DNA of 64,000 bases from Planctomycetaceae bacterium (GTDB lineage: Bacteria; Planctomycetota; Phycisphaerae; Sedimentisphaerales; Anaerohalosphaeraceae), in the NCBI GenBank assembly GCA_021372945.1, contig JAJFTK010000054.1, positions 20,691 to 84,690 on the forward strand, written 5' to 3'. The notes under the pieces were generated by a model. That model was not told the origin of the DNA. It made no database searches and worked only from the letters and a program-made list of their open reading frames with translations. Shown here one piece after another: positions 2,765 through 60,344 of this stretch. The position numbers were made by a program, and so were the translations under genes. Every line of letters begins with the position of its first letter. The first letter of the stretch is position 1.

Positions 2765-3316
2765 CTAGGCAGGTCGGATTACTCTGCAGGGATTGCCGGC
2801 AGCGATTACGTTGTCGGGGATATCTTTAGTGACGATGCTTCCGGCGCCAATGGTGACGTTGCTGCCGACCTTCACGCCGGGGCACAAAATGGCGCCGCCG
2901 CCGATCCATACATTGTCGCCGATGCTGATGGGCTTGGCAAACTCTTTGCCCGTCAAACGCACGGCCGGGTCCGTTGGGTGCGCGGCCGTATAGATTTGGA
3001 CGTTGGGAGCAAGCAGCGCATTATCGCCGATCTTCACGGTGTTGACGTCGAGGATGACGCACCCGAAATTCGCGTAGAAATTGTCACCGATCTCGATATT
3101 GTACCCGTAATCGCAATAGAAGGACGGTTCGATGTAAAATGAACCCTTTGCTCGCAGCAGTTCGCGAAGGATGGCTTTTCGCCGATCGATCTCATCGGGC
3201 CCCGTTCGGTTAAACGCAAAGGTCAGCCGCCTGGCAAAGTCGCGCTCCCTGACAAGTTCCGCATCCAGTGAATTGTACAGTTCTCCCGCCAGCATCTTTT
3301 CTTTTTCGGTAGGCAT
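2765..3316 (-). CDS. maa: Maltose/galactoside O-acetyltransferase family (hexapeptide repeat)
   Basis: The product is 183 residues, the usual length for Maa/LacA/NodL-type sugar O-acetyltransferases. It begins MPTEKEKMLAGELYNS, a near-diagnostic Maa N-terminus. The rest is a left-handed beta helix built of hexapeptide repeats (for example IGDNFYAN, IGDNALLAP, IGDNVWIGGGAI, VGSNVTIGAGS). The catalytic His is His113 in the YTAAHP motif. These enzymes move acetyl from acetyl-CoA to a sugar hydroxyl and act as cytoplasmic trimers. The open frame continues upstream to 3901 without family resemblance, so the start is placed at 3316. It is divergent from bioA. The true acceptor sugar cannot be read from sequence. 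Confidence 0.88.
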   Translation of the reverse strand: MPTEKEKMLAGELYNSLDAELVRERDFARRLTFAFNRTGPDEIDRRKAILRELLRAKGSFYIEPSFYCDYGYNIEIGDNFYANFGCVILDVNTVKIGDNALLAPNVQIYTAAHPTDPAVRLTGKEFAKPISIGDNVWIGGGAILCPGVKVGSNVTIGAGSIVTKDIPDNVIAAGNPCRVIRPA

Positions 3317-3364
3317 GATGGGCAGTGTATCCGGCCTGCCTGCATACCGCCAGTAAAATGTGCC

Positions 3365-3393
3365 TTGACGCGACGGGGACTTTGACCCATAAT
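3365..3393 (+). promoter_or_regulatory. Promoter for bioA giving a leaderless transcript
   Basis: TTGACG (3365-3370) and CATAAT (3388-3393) have a 17-base spacer. Transcription would begin at about 3400-3401, exactly at the ATG of bioA. The alternative ATG at 3392 lies inside the -10 box and so cannot be translated from this promoter. Confidence 0.6.
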
Positions 3394-3400
3394 GGGTCGC

Positions 3401-4762
3401 ATGAATGAAAAAACGCGAGAACTGATCCAACAGGATAAGCAGTACCTGTGGCACCCGTTCACCCAAATGGCTGATTGGCTGGCGGGCGAGCCGCTTATCA
3501 TTGATTCGGGGGATGGCTTTTACCTGATCGATACCGAAGGCCGCCGCTATATTGACGGCGTGTGCAGTCTGTGGTGCAACGTGCACGGCCATCGCGTGCC
3601 GCAGATCGATGACGCCATCCGCGCGCAGCTCGATAAGATCGCCCACAGTACGCTGCTGGGGCTGGGGCAAACGGCCTCGATCGAGCTTGCTGAAAAACTG
3701 ATCCGGATCGCACCAGAGGGGCTGGCCAAGGTGTTTTATTCCGACAGCGGGGCCACGGCGGTGGAGATCGCCATCAAGATCGCCTGCCAATACTGGCGAA
3801 ATATCGGTCAGGGCACAAAGACCAAGTTTATCGCGCTGAAGGAGGCGTATCATGGCGATACGGTCGGGGCGGTCAGCGTAGGCGGGATGGAACTGTTTCA
3901 CGGGATCTTCAAGCCGCTGCTGTTTGAGACCTTATTTGCGCCGACGCCGCACCCATACCGTTTCGCGGGGACCTCAGATGAATGCCTGCAATTCAGTCTT
4001 TCGGCGGTTGAAACGCTGCTGCAATTGCACCCGGACCAGGTTGCGGGCATAATCGCTGAGCCGCTGGTACAGGGGGCGGCGGGGATGATCGTGCATCCGG
4101 CGGGGTTTTTGAAGGGCCTTGAGCGGCTGGCGCGAAAATATAATGTGCTGCTGATCGCCGACGAGGTGGCCACCGGATTCGGGCGGACGGGCAGGATGTT
4201 CGCCTGCGAGCATGAGGATGTGCAGCCCGACCTGATGTGCATTGCCAAGGGCATCAGCGGCGGATACCTGCCGCTGGCGGCGACGCTGGCAACACAGAAG
4301 CTCTTCGACGCGTTTGCGGTGGCCGGCGACGTCAGCAAGACATTCTATCACGGCCACACATACACCGGCAATGCGCTGGCGTGCGCGGCGGCGATTGCTT
4401 CGCTGGAGCTGTTTGAACAAAACCGCATCCTCGAAAGCCTGCCCGCCAAGATTCAGTTAGTTAAGGAGTACTTCGGCCGGTTTAGAAATCTACCCTATGT
4501 CGGCGATGTCCGCCAATGCGGCATGATGGGCGGTATCGAACTTGTCCTCGATAAGCAGAGCAAGTCGCCGTTCCCGCCGGAATGGAAGATCGGCGCCAAG
4601 GTTTGCGCCGCCATGCGGTCCCGGGGTGCCATCATGCGTCCACTGGAAGACGTTATCGTCCTCATGCCGGCGGTGGGAATGGATATACAGACTTTAACTG
4701 CTTTGCTAGACATCATCGAAAACACATTGATCAGAGATTTGCCTGAAATTGTGAATCTGTGA
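3401..4762 (+). CDS. bioA: Adenosylmethionine-8-amino-7-oxononanoate aminotransferase
   Basis: This PLP-dependent class III aminotransferase makes 7,8-diaminopelargonate in biotin synthesis, using S-adenosylmethionine as amino donor. The product is 453 residues. The N-terminus KQYLWHPFTQM is the BioA signature for substrate recognition. The PLP-binding Asp lies in LLIADEVATGFGRTG (Asp254) and the Schiff-base Lys in IAKGISGGYLPLAATL (Lys283). The start at 3401 is chosen because the promoter places transcription there. An ATG nine bases upstream falls in the -10 box. bioD follows after 60 bases, so the two probably form an operon. bioB and bioF are not in this window. Family assignment is secure. 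Confidence 0.95.
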   Translation: MNEKTRELIQQDKQYLWHPFTQMADWLAGEPLIIDSGDGFYLIDTEGRRYIDGVCSLWCNVHGHRVPQIDDAIRAQLDKIAHSTLLGLGQTASIELAEKLIRIAPEGLAKVFYSDSGATAVEIAIKIACQYWRNIGQGTKTKFIALKEAYHGDTVGAVSVGGMELFHGIFKPLLFETLFAPTPHPYRFAGTSDECLQFSLSAVETLLQLHPDQVAGIIAEPLVQGAAGMIVHPAGFLKGLERLARKYNVLLIADEVATGFGRTGRMFACEHEDVQPDLMCIAKGISGGYLPLAATLATQKLFDAFAVAGDVSKTFYHGHTYTGNALACAAAIASLELFEQNRILESLPAKIQLVKEYFGRFRNLPYVGDVRQCGMMGGIELVLDKQSKSPFPPEWKIGAKVCAAMRSRGAIMRPLEDVIVLMPAVGMDIQTLTALLDIIENTLIRDLPEIVNL

Positions 4763-5660: not shown

Positions 5661-7274
5661 ATGCCTACGCGGCAAGCGGAAATCCGGCGCTATCTTGTGC
5701 CGGTCAATACGGTTTCGACCAAACAGATGTTTACGGATTGCCTGGTGATCGGCAGCGGGATCGCCGGCCTGCGGGCGGCACTGGAAGCGGCGGAAAGCTG
5801 CACGGTGACGCTGGTCTGCAAGGGCTCAGTCTCTGACAGCAACACGTGGAATGCGCAAGGCGGCGTGGCCAGCGTCCTGGCGGCAGAGGACAGTTTTGAG
5901 TCTCACATCGACGATACGCTCAGAACGGGCGGCGGCATCTGCGACCGCGCGGTTGTCGAAAGGGTGGTCAGGGAAGGGCCGGACCTGATCCGGCAGTTGA
6001 TGGATTGGGGGACGGAATTTGACCGCGTCGAAGGCAAGATGGATATCTCGCTGGAGGGCGGGCACAGCCATGCCCGGATCATTCACTCCCACGGCGATTC
6101 GACGGGACGCGGCATCGCCGAAACGCTGGTCCGCAAGGTCCGGCAAAATCGCAACATCAACCTGATCGAGAATTTTTTCGCCATTGACCTGCTCAGCGGG
6201 CCGCAGCGCGAGTGCGTCGGCGTGCTCGGCTGGCAAGCGCCCGCCGAGGTGCAGATGATCTGGGCGGGTGTCACCATCCTGGCCACCGGCGGCGCCGGCC
6301 GGCTGTACCGCGAAACGACCAATCCCGAATGCGCGACCGCCGACGGTCTGGGAATGGCCTGGCGCGCCGGGGCGGTGCTGCGCGATATGGAATTCATGCA
6401 GTTTCACCCGACAACGCTGTATATCGCCGGAGCGTCACGCGCCCTGATGACCGAGACGCTGCGCGGCGAAGGGGGCATTCTGCGCGACGTTAACGGCGTG
6501 CCGTTCATGAAAGAATATGACCCGCGCGCCGAACTTGCGCCGCGCGACGTGGTCAGCCGCGCGATCCTGGACCGTATGCTCAAAACCCAATCGACGCACG
6601 TCTATCTGGACATCCGCCATTTTGACAAAGACCGCTTTCACAGCCGGTTTCCGTTCATCAGCGAGCTTTGCGAGAGCTTCGATATCGACGTATCGACGGA
6701 CCTGATCCCGGTGCGGCCCAGCGCCCATTACATGGTCGGCGGCGTCAAGACGGATGCCGAGGCGGCCACGAATATCCCGCGTCTGCTGGCCTGCGGCGAA
6801 GTGGCCTCGACAGGGCTGCACGGCGCCAACCGGCTGGGCAGCAATTCGCTGCTGGAGGGGCTTGTGTACGGCAAGATCGCCGGCAAGACGGCCATTCACC
6901 TGGTCAGCACGCTGGGAACGGTGGGCTATCAGCGCATGCAGTTGGAGATCCCGCCGTCGGACCGCAGCCTGCTGGACGCCGACGACGTCCGCAATTCGTT
7001 GCGGGCGCTCATGTGGCGAAACGTGGGCATCACGCGCCGGCAAACGCCGCTGAGCGAAGCCATTGAGATCATCCGCTTCTGGCAGCGGTATGTGATGGAT
7101 AAGGTCTTCACGAATCCGTTCGGCTGGGAGTGTCAGAACATGCTGACCGTTGCGCTCTTGATGGCGCATGCCGCCGAGCAGCGCAAGGAATCCCGCGGCG
7201 TGCATTTCCGCCAGGACTTCCCGCAGCGGGATGATGAGAACTTCGCCCGTCACATCGAACTGGTCAGGGAATGA
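5661..7274 (+). CDS. nadB: L-aspartate oxidase
   Basis: NadB is an FAD enzyme that oxidises L-aspartate to iminoaspartate, the first step of de novo NAD synthesis. The product is 537 residues. The FAD dinucleotide fold is LVIGSGIAGLRAA (29-40). Later motifs include SDSNTWNAQGGVA, EGGHSHARIIHSHGDSTG, MEFMQFHPTTLY, APRDVVSRAI and STGLHGANRLGSNSLLEGL, all typical of NadB as opposed to fumarate reductase. ATG 5661 has AGAAAGG eight bases upstream; the frame-extending TTG at 5643 has no such support. nadA and nadC are absent from the window. The last ~50 bases of the gene are duplicated about 1 kb downstream, flanking the next gene. Confidence 0.94.
   Translation: MPTRQAEIRRYLVPVNTVSTKQMFTDCLVIGSGIAGLRAALEAAESCTVTLVCKGSVSDSNTWNAQGGVASVLAAEDSFESHIDDTLRTGGGICDRAVVERVVREGPDLIRQLMDWGTEFDRVEGKMDISLEGGHSHARIIHSHGDSTGRGIAETLVRKVRQNRNINLIENFFAIDLLSGPQRECVGVLGWQAPAEVQMIWAGVTILATGGAGRLYRETTNPECATADGLGMAWRAGAVLRDMEFMQFHPTTLYIAGASRALMTETLRGEGGILRDVNGVPFMKEYDPRAELAPRDVVSRAILDRMLKTQSTHVYLDIRHFDKDRFHSRFPFISELCESFDIDVSTDLIPVRPSAHYMVGGVKTDAEAATNIPRLLACGEVASTGLHGANRLGSNSLLEGLVYGKIAGKTAIHLVSTLGTVGYQRMQLEIPPSDRSLLDADDVRNSLRALMWRNVGITRRQTPLSEAIEIIRFWQRYVMDKVFTNPFGWECQNMLTVALLMAHAAEQRKESRGVHFRQDFPQRDDENFARHIELVRE
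7222..7272 (+). repeat. Direct repeat, copy 1 (nadB 3' end)
   Basis: This 51-base stretch encodes the last residues of NadB (QRDDENFARHIELVRE) and recurs at 8207-8256. The second copy has one C-to-T change and one missing G. The two copies bracket the AT-rich membrane-protein gene. Confidence 0.85.
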
Positions 7275-7295
7275 GCACCATAAGGAGGGTAAACA

Positions 7296-8195
7296 GTGAA
7301 AAACTTGTCAAAACGATTGATTTTACATTGCAGTTTGACAATAGGGGTGTTCGTTGGCTTAGGGATGATTGCTGTTCCCGGTCCTCATGGCGGGTTGGCC
7401 ATGTTAATGCCGTATATCATAGGATTATTAAATCCTTCCAGGAGCGATCTGCTGTCATTTCTACTGATCTATCCCCCGATTCTTTTATTGGCTGCATCTG
7501 GATTTATTAGGAAAGATATCTATCGCATTGTCTGTTCTCATGTTTCGGTTCTAGTTCTGGTTGTCTTTTTCTGCAGTTTTATTCAAAATGTCGATCCACC
7601 TGTGCGTTACATTGCATTTATTACGGGTGGTCTGTTTTTTGCCTCAGCGATTCTTTCGTTCATACTACCTGTTTTCCTGCAGCGAACACTTGTTTATTCC
7701 AAGAAGCTCATAGTTGGTGAAAGTCTTGCTTCGCTTGTTTTGATTGCTCTGTCCGCAAGTGCAACCACTTTTCAGTGGTTGCCTGAAAAGAAAGTGCCGT
7801 TGAAAATACATTCGTGTGAAACAAATCTTCAATTGATTGGTCAACTCGTTGAGCTTTACGTGATCTCTCACCAGGATTACCCTTCTTGTCCTGAATGGTC
7901 TGATGCTATGGCAGAAACAGGTTCTTACATTGAACAGACATTCATGCGCTGTCCGTTGGCAAGCCAAGGTAAATGCCATTATGCGATGAATCAGCATGTC
8001 ACGAAAGACTCACCTGCGGATACGGTGTTGATATTTGAGTCTAATTCGGGCTGGAATCTGTACGGCGGCATAGATATGGCAAATACGACGCGTCATTCAG
8101 GATGCTATGTTCTGTTCAATGACAAACACGTCGAATTTGCTTCGCCAGATGAGTTGCAGAAACTTAACTGGGGTGGTGATCCAAATCAGCCATGA
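7296..8195 (+). CDS. Polytopic membrane protein with prepilin-like (DUF1559-type) C-terminal tail
   Basis: The product is 299 residues. The GTG start at 7296 has a strong AAGGAGGG site five bases upstream. The N-terminal half has about six hydrophobic segments between residues 13 and 157. The C-terminal half resembles the globular region of planctomycete type II secretion-like pseudopilins: a Cys followed by N-L-x-x-I-G and a helix, then HQDYPSCPEW, RCPLA, CHYAMNQHV, and a terminal HSGCYVLFNDKHVEF. The last corresponds to the H-x9-D-G-like tail. It lacks the prepilin peptidase site. The gene is visibly AT-richer than nadB and is flanked by the two 50-base repeats, so it looks acquired. Function is unknown. 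Confidence 0.7.
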   Translation: MKNLSKRLILHCSLTIGVFVGLGMIAVPGPHGGLAMLMPYIIGLLNPSRSDLLSFLLIYPPILLLAASGFIRKDIYRIVCSHVSVLVLVVFFCSFIQNVDPPVRYIAFITGGLFFASAILSFILPVFLQRTLVYSKKLIVGESLASLVLIALSASATTFQWLPEKKVPLKIHSCETNLQLIGQLVELYVISHQDYPSCPEWSDAMAETGSYIEQTFMRCPLASQGKCHYAMNQHVTKDSPADTVLIFESNSGWNLYGGIDMANTTRHSGCYVLFNDKHVEFASPDELQKLNWGGDPNQP

Positions 8196-8206
8196 CAAAG
8201 AGACAT

Positions 8207-8256
8207 CGCAGCGGGATGATGAGAACTTTGCCCTCACATCGAACTGGTCAGGGAAT
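8207..8256 (+). repeat. Direct repeat, copy 2 (relic of nadB 3' end)
   Basis: A near-identical copy of 7222-7272 with a one-base deletion that would break the nadB frame. It is untranslated here, immediately after the inserted membrane-protein gene. The arrangement resembles a target duplication or att-like pair. Confidence 0.85.
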
Positions 8257-8385
8257 AACCCAGGTTTGACCCGCTTTCAGCGAAACAGTTTCATTTTTCA
8301 ATAAAATCCGGATAGAGTGCGCCCGCGTCTGTCCAGTATAATAATGGTCTCGGTTGGAATACTTGATTTGACAAGGGCATAACGA

Positions 8386-8565
8386 ATGTTGAGCAATTCT
8401 TTTTCGTTGAACGGACAGATCGCCTTTATCACAGGCGGCGGGTCCGATATCGGGCAAAGCGTCGCCCAATGCATGGCGGCGGCAGGATCCAGAGTCGTCG
8501 TTTGCGGACGCCGCGAGCAGGCCCTGGAAAACACGTGCCGCCGGATCGGTGGCAGCGTTTCGACA
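8386..8565 (+). pseudogene. Short-chain dehydrogenase/reductase, N-terminal fragment only
   Basis: The frame starts at ATG 8386 and encodes about 60 residues of a classical SDR N-terminus: FSLNGQIAFITGGGSDIG (the T-G-x-x-x-G-x-G cofactor motif) and then SRVVVCGRREQALENT, the NAD(P)-selecting strand. The homology stops abruptly at about residue 60. The frame runs on directly into mannonate dehydratase sequence, and no Ser-Tyr-Lys catalytic region is present. SDR-type D-mannonate oxidoreductases often sit beside uxuA, so the natural reading is a deletion that joined two neighbouring genes of a glucuronate/mannonate pathway. A TATAAT lies at 8337-8342 upstream. Not expected to be functional. Confidence 0.8.
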
Positions 8566-8998
8566 CTTGCCGCCCATCCCGATGACCCGCCGATGAAAAC
8601 CATGCGGCTGCAGCCGCGGCTGGTCTATCAGCCGCAACTCTATGATCGCCTGATTTCCGTCAACCCCAGCCGAGCCAACAAGCTGGAATTCTGCATCGGT
8701 ACGCTTGCTGAAATGTCGAAGGCGATATCTATCAAGTTGTAGACCATTACACAGCACAAAACCGCGTCGCCTACATCTACATCCGCAATATCCGCGGCAA
8801 GATGCCGTCCTACCGCGAGACCTTCATCGATGACGGCGACGTGGACATGCGCAAAATCATCCGCATTCTGAAGAAAAACGATTACGCCGGCGTCCTGATC
8901 CCCGACCATCCCCGCAAATGACCTGCGCCGCCCCATGGCATGCCGGCATGGCCCACGCCCTCGGCTACCTGAAAGGCCTGTTGGATTCTGCCGAATAA
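8566..8998 (+). pseudogene. uxuA: Mannonate dehydratase, C-terminal part with two frameshifts
   Basis: Reading across frames gives a recognisable UxuA C-terminal third. AAHPDDPP and YDRLISVNPSRANKLEFC lie in the first frame. After a one-base loss near 8716 comes GDIYQVVDHYTAQNRVAYI and FIDDGDVDM. After a second one-base loss in a C-run near 8912 comes QMTCAAPWHAGMAHALGYL, ending at the TAA at 8996-8998. UxuA converts D-mannonate to 2-keto-3-deoxygluconate. The N-terminal two thirds are gone, replaced by the SDR fragment. The two frameshifts alone could be sequencing errors, but the deletion/fusion cannot be explained that way. This is a decayed sugar-acid locus. Confidence 0.85.
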
Positions 8999-9014
8999 AC
9001 CGGCCAAATCCCGT

Positions 9015-9050: not shown

Positions 9051-9432
9051 TGAGCGGGTCGGACGGTTGCCGGGTTGAAAGACACCCGGAGGAAAGTCCG
9101 AGCAGGACAGGGCACGGTGGCGGCTAACGGCCGCCCGGGGCGACCCGCGGGAAAGTGCCGCAGAAACGACACAGCCGATGACCTTTCGGGGTACAGGCAA
9201 TGGTGAAATGGTGCGGTAAGAGCGCACCGCGCCGCCGGTAACGGCGACGGCAGGGCAAACCCCACCGCCTGCAAGACCAAGCAGCCGCGTGTTCGGCCCG
9301 AACGCCATCGCGGCGGGTAGGTTGCTTGCCGAATGCCAAAGTGTTCGGCAGAGCCGGCCGGCAACGGCCGGTCCAGTGTAATGACCGTCATCCGCTTCGG
9401 CGGAGACAGAACTCGGCTTACAGACCCGCTCA
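9051..9432 (+). ncRNA. rnpB: RNase P RNA, bacterial type A
   Basis: This is the catalytic RNA that trims the 5' leaders of tRNA precursors. The hallmark conserved regions are present: GAGGAAAGTCCGAGC near the 5' end (about 9090), the central GCAGGGCAAACCCC region (about 9252), and ACAGAACTCGGCTTACAGAC at the 3' end. The terminal P1 helix is TGAGCGGGTC (9051-9060) paired with GACCCGCTCA (9423-9432). The length of about 380 bases is normal for type A. Open frames drawn through this region on the other strand are artefacts. Confidence 0.97.
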
Positions 9433-9488
9433 TTTCTTATTGATGATTGTCGATAGAGGATTGACGATTGTTTGAACGGAAGCTGACA

Positions 9489-59350: not shown

Positions 59351-59625
59351 TTTTACAGGGCGATGATGTTTTTGATTTGATGCCTGAACCTAAGGCGATG
59401 CTCTGGGCTAGAATACATCGGCCTTTCAGACCGTCTGCCGCGGGGCATTGCCCCTCAGTTCTTCGGGGCCGGCCCTGGCTGGAGTATATTGGCCTTTCGG
59501 GCCGCAATGGGTGCATCTGAAACTGATCAGATGGTTGTCAGGCAGCCTGAAAGGCTGGTTTTAAGCTAACCCAGGGCGCAGCCCTGGGCCGAAATCTCAA
59601 TAGGAGAGCCCGCCCTGAAGGGGCG
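59351..59625 (+). repeat. REP-like hairpin repeat field upstream of the IS200-like gene
   Basis: The stretch contains a degenerate copy of the unit CGATGATGTTTTTGATTTGA ... CTGGGCTAGAATACATCGGC (59351-59434). A diverged copy with CCCTGGCTGGAGTATATTGGC follows (about 59470-59500). Hairpins follow: AGCCTG-A-AAGGCT (about 59553), CCCAGGGC-GCA-GCCCTGGG (59570-59588) and CGCCC-TGAAG-GGGCG (59611-59625). The same modules recur on the other side of the transposase gene. Confidence 0.85.
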
Positions 59626-59638
59626 GTATAAAACAGCT

Positions 59639-60091
59639 ATGCCGCAATCTTTGGCCCAGATGTACGTGCATATTATTTTCGGCACCAAGGAACGCTATCC
59701 TTTTATCCATTCTGCTATTGAATTCGAACTTTACGCTTTCATCGGCGGCACGATTAAGAAAATGAATGGCATTCCATGCTTGATCAACGGAACGGCCGAT
59801 CACGTTCATGTTTTGTCTTCTCTGCCGAGAACAAAAAGCGTGTCTGATTATCTGGAGAAAATCAAAGGCGAAAGCAGCCGCTGGATCAAGACCAAAGGTG
59901 CTGAATACGAGAAATTTGCATGGCAAAACGGATATGGAGCCTTTTCAGTCAGCAGTTCGAAACTGGATTCCGTAAAACGCTATATCGCCGGGCAGAAAGA
60001 ACATCATCGAACGGTCACGTTTAAAGAAGAGTTTGTTGCGTTCCTGCAGAAGTACGGAATCGAATATAATGAACAATATTTGTGGGATTGA
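59639..60091 (+). CDS. IS200/IS605-like Y1 transposase, REP-associated (RAYT) type
   Basis: The product is 150 residues, a single HUH-type Y1 transposase domain. Motifs are LAQMYVHIIFGTKERYPF at the N-terminus, the metal-binding HUH motif in ADHVHVLSSLP, and the catalytic Tyr in LDSVKRYIAGQKEHHRT. The chain ends with GIEYNEQYLWD, a typical ending for this subfamily. It carries no TnpB partner and has no IS200 ends. Instead it is bracketed by copies of a hairpin repeat, as domesticated REP-associated tyrosine transposases are. Such enzymes cut and move single-stranded REP hairpins. The gene is intact, with no frameshift. Confidence 0.93.
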   Translation: MPQSLAQMYVHIIFGTKERYPFIHSAIEFELYAFIGGTIKKMNGIPCLINGTADHVHVLSSLPRTKSVSDYLEKIKGESSRWIKTKGAEYEKFAWQNGYGAFSVSSSKLDSVKRYIAGQKEHHRTVTFKEEFVAFLQKYGIEYNEQYLWD

Positions 60092-60096
60092 TTACT

Positions 60097-60344
60097 TTGC
60101 CCTTTCAGGGCAAAGATGTTTTTGATTTGATGTCTGAACCCAGGGCGGTGCCCTGGGCTAGAGTATATCGGCCTTTCAGGCCGTACAACTTTGAATACGC
60201 TATTTATGGAATTGGTTTTATTATGTTGCCCTTTCAGGGCGATGATGTTTTTGATTTGATTCCTGAACCCAGGGCGTCCTCGTTCGCCAAGGCTGCGGAA
60301 GGACAGGTTGCCCTGGGCTAGAGTACAGCGGCTTTTCAGGCCGC
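60097..60344 (+). repeat. Two REP-like three-hairpin units downstream of the IS200-like gene
   Basis: Unit A (60097-60183) holds TTGCCCT-TTC-AGGGCAA, the spacer GATGTTTTTGATTTGAT, CCCAGGGC-GGT-GCCCTGGG and CGGCCT-TTC-AGGCCG. Unit B (60226-60344) repeats this order almost exactly. In unit B, 33 bases (60277-60309, containing TTCGCCAAGGCTGCGGAAGG) are inserted in the loop of the middle hairpin. This accounts for most of the gap between the transposase and mfd. Confidence 0.88.

Follow-up and report, generated by a model that had tools for sequence, protein, structure and literature searches.

A membrane-protein gene between two direct copies of the nadB 3′ end: a possible scar of gene capture by host recombination

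In Escherichia coli, where homology to the lacZ 3′ end was available on one side only, part of lacZ was duplicated in 56 of 60 Lac− clones, and the 14 duplications that were sequenced measured 109–950 bp (PMC3240628). The duplications, rare events in that study, are explained there by one crossover involving recircularised DNA from which part of the homology was missing; four of the 60 clones were true one-sided illegitimate events, with deletions and no duplications (PMC3240628). A single crossover with a circle has also been proposed for the displacement of Rhs tips (PMC2935791), and one-sided homology for the immunity-gene arrays of Vibrio (PMC5361080). The arrival of a gene behind a gene end by a recombinase-free route is therefore possible and already published.

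The locus described here lies in a 64-kb stretch of DNA (hereafter the window, meaning the whole stretch that was analysed) on contig C52 of the draft genome of an uncultured planctomycete, of 3.58 Mb in 146 contigs. Bacteria commonly have single accessory genes at the ends of their operons, and the route by which these arrive is rarely visible. In a repeat search of the 64-kb window, the last 53 bases of nadB (7222–7274) were found again, in direct orientation, at 8207–8258, beyond a gene that encodes a protein of 299 amino acids. The features of the locus, in window coordinates, are:

5661–7274, + strand: nadB (L-aspartate oxidase), intact, stop TGA; Pfam FAD_binding_2 and Succ_DH_flav_C, full-length alignment
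7219–7231, no strand: TCCCGCAGCGGGA, a palindrome-like stretch of 13 bases on the left edge of the repeat; read from the sequence
7222–7274, + strand: direct repeat copy 1, the terminal 53 bases of nadB, stop TGA
7282–7289, + strand: Shine–Dalgarno-like AAGGAGGG of the 299-aa gene; read from the sequence
7296–8195, + strand: 299-aa gene, five membrane-like segments and a C-terminal pseudopilin-like domain; ORF with GTG start, hydropathy, family alignment
8207–8258, + strand: direct repeat copy 2, left over from a nadB 3′ end; it differs by a substitution and a deletion and retains a stop (TAA) in place
8386–9000, + strand: decayed remnant, in which the beginning of a short-chain dehydrogenase is joined to broken UxuA pieces; Pfam
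9051–9436, + strand: RNase P RNA (rnpB); Rfam RF00010

The gene at 5661–7274, which we take to be nadB from an earlier sequence-only reading and from knowledge of the family, is intact: completed by copy 1 of the repeat, it aligns with its relatives across all residues 1–537, and the insert that follows is bracketed by direct copies of its 3′ end. The 299-aa gene starts 21 bases past the nadB stop and has its own Shine–Dalgarno sequence. The only other ORF of at least 80 amino acids between the repeats is an antisense one of 110 amino acids, taken as spurious, and the insert holds one gene and neither an integrase nor a transposase, as the sequence-only reading had stated. Copy 2 is followed by the dehydrogenase/UxuA remnant, whose UxuA pieces (one with an internal stop) are the sole UxuA matches in the draft genome, and then by rnpB.

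The duplication of about 50 bases of the nadB end after the 299-aa gene, with one substitution and one deletion, had likewise been claimed from the letters and was confirmed by the repeat search and by BLAST (E values of 3e-16 to 1e-19, varying with the query); the copies also differ at the second position of their stop codons (TGA in copy 1, TAA in copy 2). The repeat as detected spans 7222–7272 and 8207–8256 at 96% identity with one gap, and with the stop codon included the copies match to 7274 and 8258 (GAATGA/GAATAA). Since the match runs through the stop codon, the nadB end is the right end of the repeat, beyond which the flanks of the two copies share no similarity. The one-base deletion shifts the reading frame of copy 2, and the stop is retained at the same position. 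The ungapped halves of the repeat score 24 and 23, compared with a maximum of 14 in five first-order Markov shuffles of the window, and the repeat exceeds chance. Five other repeat pairs in the window outscore it, four of them around an IS200-type transposase gene at 59–60 kb and one within a large ORF (13625/15899). This transposase gene (IS200/IS605 type, 59639–60091; NF033573, above cut-off), in the region 59353–60343, is flanked by repeats at 59353–59434, 60103–60184 and 60232–60276, which include a match to the Rfam family Acido-Lenti-1 (60139–60183), an RNA family that at this locus may belong to a REP-like element or to the end of an IS200 sequence.

Two explanations of the repeat bear directly on its sequence. 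The first is an assembly error in a metagenome-assembled genome, which is conceivable in a draft of so many contigs, with exact runs within the repeat of only 22–23 bases, near small k-mers. Copy 2, however, has a substitution, an indel, a stop codon and flanks of its own, and with such distinct sequence it should stem from real reads; we regard an error as very unlikely. According to the second, a staggered break was filled in while the gene was inserted, and direct repeats around an insert without a recombinase gene would indeed result. Target-site duplications of about 50 bases are nevertheless long for staggered-break events, and a repeat that ends exactly at the stop, with a stop in both copies, would be produced only by chance (about 3 in 16), which makes a target-site duplication of this length very unlikely.

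Hydropathy of the 299-aa protein revealed five membrane-like segments across residues 9–156 and a soluble tail after them, and residues ~165–297 constitute a family domain that was matched in 35 of the 60 genomes searched (own genome included). Hydropathy and the family alignment together support what had been proposed for this protein, namely a multi-pass membrane region fused to a pseudopilin-like tail. In the alignment (n = 42, i.e. the window gene and 41 of the 44 family genes, with L088, L095 and L111 omitted), W201, N232, F247, N254 and W292 are invariant and the family pattern reads C..NL..L..A..Y ... WCD.L ... F.CP...G.C.YA.N.N ... D.VLLFE..PGWNQ.GG ... GCNV.F.DG.VEFV ... L.W, while the N-terminal part, as read from the alignment, varies from zinc-ribbon-like to single-segment or multi-pass. 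The pseudopilin-like proteins of the H-X9-DG-CTERM and DUF1559 types display a similar C-terminal pattern around H...GCNV.F.DG.VEF, but the window protein has a five-segment membrane part and lies outside both models, matching neither TIGR04294 (H-X9-DG-CTERM) nor PF07596 (DUF1559). Two of five other family members scanned fall just under the TIGR04294 cut-off, and some relatives match the TIGR04294 or PF07596 models below their cut-offs. Scans of the 299-aa protein against Pfam (E 1) and NCBIfam (E 0.1) returned no families, a search by sequence of solved structures gave nothing better than E 0.12, and viral contigs, plasmids and phages gave no match. Among 392 genomes from the phylum, only its own genome was hit at E 1e-17, a threshold that most of the relatives matched in the 60 genomes would miss too.

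The closest family members come from other genera, and mostly from other families, at identities of no more than 41%. The genus itself carries several paralogs of the 299-aa gene. In the tree the branch of the gene is long and its nearest rows are other genera and families; a grouping with the genus paralogs was not rejected (p-AU 0.228) and a foreign origin is therefore not proven. Elsewhere in the family, region 2872–3444 of locus L093 consists of a family-like membrane part and then a 65-base remnant of the C-terminal domain, beside an intact member, and reads like an internal deletion.

The AT-richness of the 299-aa gene, also pointed out in the sequence-only reading, was borne out by its GC and GC3 values (0.43 and 0.41), compared with 0.63 and 0.81 for nadB and a window median GC3 of 0.69. 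Among 50 largely non-overlapping window ORFs of at least 100 amino acids it has the lowest GC, with the IS200-type transposase next. In part the low GC is typical of the family: of 44 family genes elsewhere, 36 are AT-richer than their surroundings (mean over all 44, −4.6 points; SD 5.2), and the drop of 13.1 points seen here is strong, yet inside the family range (−17 in L104 and −14 in L116).

Added DNA behind nadB fits the position of rnpB, which lies 1.8 kb past nadB here as compared with 28–1120 bases in 12 relatives; in one congener the distance is 4.7 kb. This survey comprised 54 relative rows, 15 with rnpB behind nadB (13 after merging two duplicates) and many of the others too short in DNA to tell. 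A second nadB tail was absent from all 123 other nadB entries, some of which are one genome counted twice (127 entries were surveyed over 300 to 6000 bases past nadB, four being our own locus under different ids); nine entries with matches of 13–35 bases, at E 2e-4 or worse, were counted as lacking it. The closest nadB relatives share 77–80% protein identity and the DNA past their nadB is unrelated to that of the window. Seven congeners have a nadB locus, and none has the family gene there or anything similar to the 1.8 kb that follows nadB in the window. Beside nadB, the family gene was found in none of the 31 (of 34) other family-bearing genomes in which nadB was located, the family and nadB searches covering the same 60 genomes, own genome included, and 80 nadB loci gave no family match. 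Neither a donor, with the gene behind nadB, nor an empty-site recipient was found among these relatives, the nearest of which have nadB proteins of ~80% identity. In congener G008 (locus L061), a 111-base repeat (6261–6371/6731–6840, 98% identical) starts ~40 bases past nadB.

The sequence-only reading had gone on to suggest a cassette that moves without its own recombinase, and this suggestion was not supported. Within the draft genome, the 22-base repeat end was found only at the two nadB-tail positions, even with up to three mismatches allowed, a second copy of the cassette DNA was lacking, and the flanks examined at the family loci outside Rhs arrays (40 loci in all) contain no duplicated host coding end, although some family genes lie near contig ends, with 57–770 bases on one side, where brackets could escape detection. 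Self-comparison of the 40 loci detected brackets in seven (L083, L093, L095, L097, L104, L105 and L107). None of these duplicates a host coding end outside Rhs arrays in the flanks examined, and we rejected the idea of a mobile cassette that duplicates host-gene ends across the family. In L093 it is the family gene's own tail that is repeated, and the main repeats of L083 and L097 are intergenic, that of L097 being pyrimidine-rich. The nearest thing to a second case was L095, in which a 41-base terminator-like sequence (2619–2659), 35 bases past an 834-aa ORF, recurs at 90% identity (4407–4446) four small ORFs later, 29 bases past the family gene; no coding end is duplicated there. A survey of 1.58 Mb of related DNA, made up of 142 stretches with some regions counted twice, considered ORFs of 120 amino acids or more and found 24 direct repeat pairs of 35–400 bases; only the nadB-tail repeat joins an ORF 3′ end to an intergenic copy.

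This uniqueness also bears on site-specific integration, in which the nadB 3′ end would have provided the attachment site for a small non-autonomous element, inserted by a tyrosine recombinase that either acted in trans or was lost afterwards, the repeats being attL and attR. Attachment sites in gene 3′ ends give such a layout and such repeat lengths, the restored gene end fits as well, and a crossover at such a site would leave the same arrangement; the genome also contains eight integrase-family (PF00589) matches, seven of them above cut-off. Contig C52 carries none of these matches, however, the insert is a single gene of less than 1 kb with no integrase inside it, and neither the draft genome nor the other nadB entries hold a further such site or tail. 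Integration of this kind is unlikely, if worth keeping in mind. An integron gene cassette would have an attC hairpin following its gene, along with an integron integrase; the repeat search of the window listed no inverted repeat within 8196–8260. What stands of the insertion into the nadB 3′ end proposed earlier is the insertion-like layout with an intact nadB; its reading as a moving cassette is not supported. A known recombinase-free route explains the layout.

The likeliest account, roughly as probable as all the other explanations combined, is that one event of gene capture via host recombination left this scar at the nadB 3′ end. The donor, direction, circle and crossover that we infer would be as follows. 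A related bacterium with the 299-aa gene behind its nadB would have been the source of DNA that entered the cell, bringing a piece of the nadB 3′ end together with that gene. One homologous crossover between this DNA, most likely with its ends joined into a small circle, and the resident nadB would then produce a full nadB with the donor TGA, the new gene, the truncated old nadB end with the recipient TAA and the old downstream DNA to rnpB, and the gene would need no recombinase of its own. Once captured, it would presumably be transcribed by read-through from the nadB operon and yield a membrane-anchored protein with a pseudopilin-like domain. The repeat ends at the gene stop, where donor and recipient homology would end because the DNA past nadB differs from the window in all seven congeners with a nadB locus and the coding end is conserved; a repeat ending at the nadB stop, with different stop codons (TGA and TAA) in its copies, is expected when two nadB alleles meet. 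Capture is also favoured by the intact nadB, the single occurrence of the repeat end and of the cassette DNA in the genome, the absence of comparable repeats from the related DNA surveyed, the distance to rnpB, a GC3 unlike that of the neighbours and the nearest family members being from other genera. Some 50 bases is a short homology for a RecA crossover, and capture is weakened by this, by the rarity of such events in E. coli (PMC3240628), by the AT-richness widespread in the family, by the failure to find a donor or empty site and by a foreign origin that is not proven. A one-sided illegitimate variant of the event fits less well, since the four clones of this type among the 60 described in E. 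coli had deletions (PMC3240628).

If the gene had instead been resident behind nadB, the nadB tail could have been copied behind it through template switching or through tandem duplication and a subsequent deletion, and transfer would be unnecessary. The several paralogs in the genus, the placement of the gene among them that was not rejected and the palindrome-like 13-mer at the left border of the repeat favour such a local duplication. It requires two steps or a template switch, however, no relative was found with the gene behind nadB, and the two copies have different stop codons at the same place; we rate it as rather unlikely. Because a near relative with an empty site was lacking among the relatives searched, integrase action and local duplication each retain some share of the probability beside capture by host recombination.

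The genomic contexts of the family offer a lead to its function. Directly behind an Rhs tip is the usual place of an immunity gene. In four of 40 family loci (L104, L105, L107 and L113) the family gene comes directly after an ORF with an Rhs-type end and a variable tip, its start lying −20 to +31 bases from the end of the tip ORF. An Rhs core above the TIGR03696 cut-off is present in L105, L107 and L113; L104, in which only a short Rhs-like fragment was seen by eye, resembles L113 in its tip (54% over 39 residues, E 1e-9) and is very probably an Rhs array. The tips of L104 and L113 have the stretch NCQ.ATAKA..CCL in common, and displaced core fragments and variable tips were observed in the Rhs arrays of L113 (597–1433 and 3338–4481), L105 (1479–8489) and L107 (2391–5369). 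The family gene is bracketed by duplicated Rhs core pieces in L105 and L107, and by copies of the short fragment in L104, brackets that have the known look of displaced Rhs tips. Relatives of the 299-aa gene thus occupy the immunity-gene position of Rhs loci, a useful lead from which a protective (immunity) role of the family protein may be guessed. The window gene follows nadB instead of standing directly behind an Rhs core and tip, and the one Rhs core match of its genome is on a contig other than C52.

Most family genes follow a co-directional neighbour. Among 41 family genes (L088, L095 and L111 omitted), 34 of the 39 with a visible upstream ORF follow a co-directional one, 31 of them within 200 bases, and several of the upstream ORFs resemble housekeeping genes by eye. 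Against control ORFs the tendency is weak: 37/42 family genes and 109/158 controls have a co-directional upstream neighbour (p 0.018, uncorrected), and 30/42 and 89/158, respectively, have one at no more than 200 bases (p 0.08). It is conceivable that an immunity-like family of membrane-anchored proteins in this planctomycete order spreads in a recombinase-free manner, its genes docking behind conserved gene ends, the route of Rhs tips being used at housekeeping genes also, and that the scar at nadB is still visible while older dockings have lost theirs; we consider this distinctly doubtful.

Should the event be a lone accident, which is what the evidence suggests, its value is chiefly that of a clear example, and with the old nadB end persisting behind the newcomer the route of arrival is testable in strain-level data. 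The link of an orphan membrane protein to genes in the Rhs immunity position provides a testable guess for the family. With integrative elements whose attachment sites lie at the 3′ ends of genes, the locus shares direct gene-end repeats around the insert, but the nadB insert has no integrase, consists of one gene and was found at no second place in the material searched. In the type VI immunity-gene arrays of Vibrio, which have been explained by homology-facilitated illegitimate recombination (PMC5361080), one-sided homology is proposed to anchor non-homologous genes without an integrase; unlike the nadB locus, those arrays gain effector–immunity modules in a secretion cluster. Displacement of Rhs C-terminal tips (PMC2935791) is alike in that a gene arrives after a conserved part and the old end is displaced downstream as a fragment, and relatives of the 299-aa gene participate in Rhs arrays (L105, L107, L113 and probably L104); the conserved part in the published account is the Rhs core, whereas here it is a housekeeping gene with an unchanged coding sequence. 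The duplicated lacZ 3′ ends of E. coli (PMC3240628) share with our locus a gene 3′ end, added DNA (in our case probably foreign), a truncated second end and the lack of a site-specific recombinase, but they are laboratory events with 1 kb of homology and duplications of 109–950 bp as reported, whereas the nadB duplication is natural and of ~50 bp.
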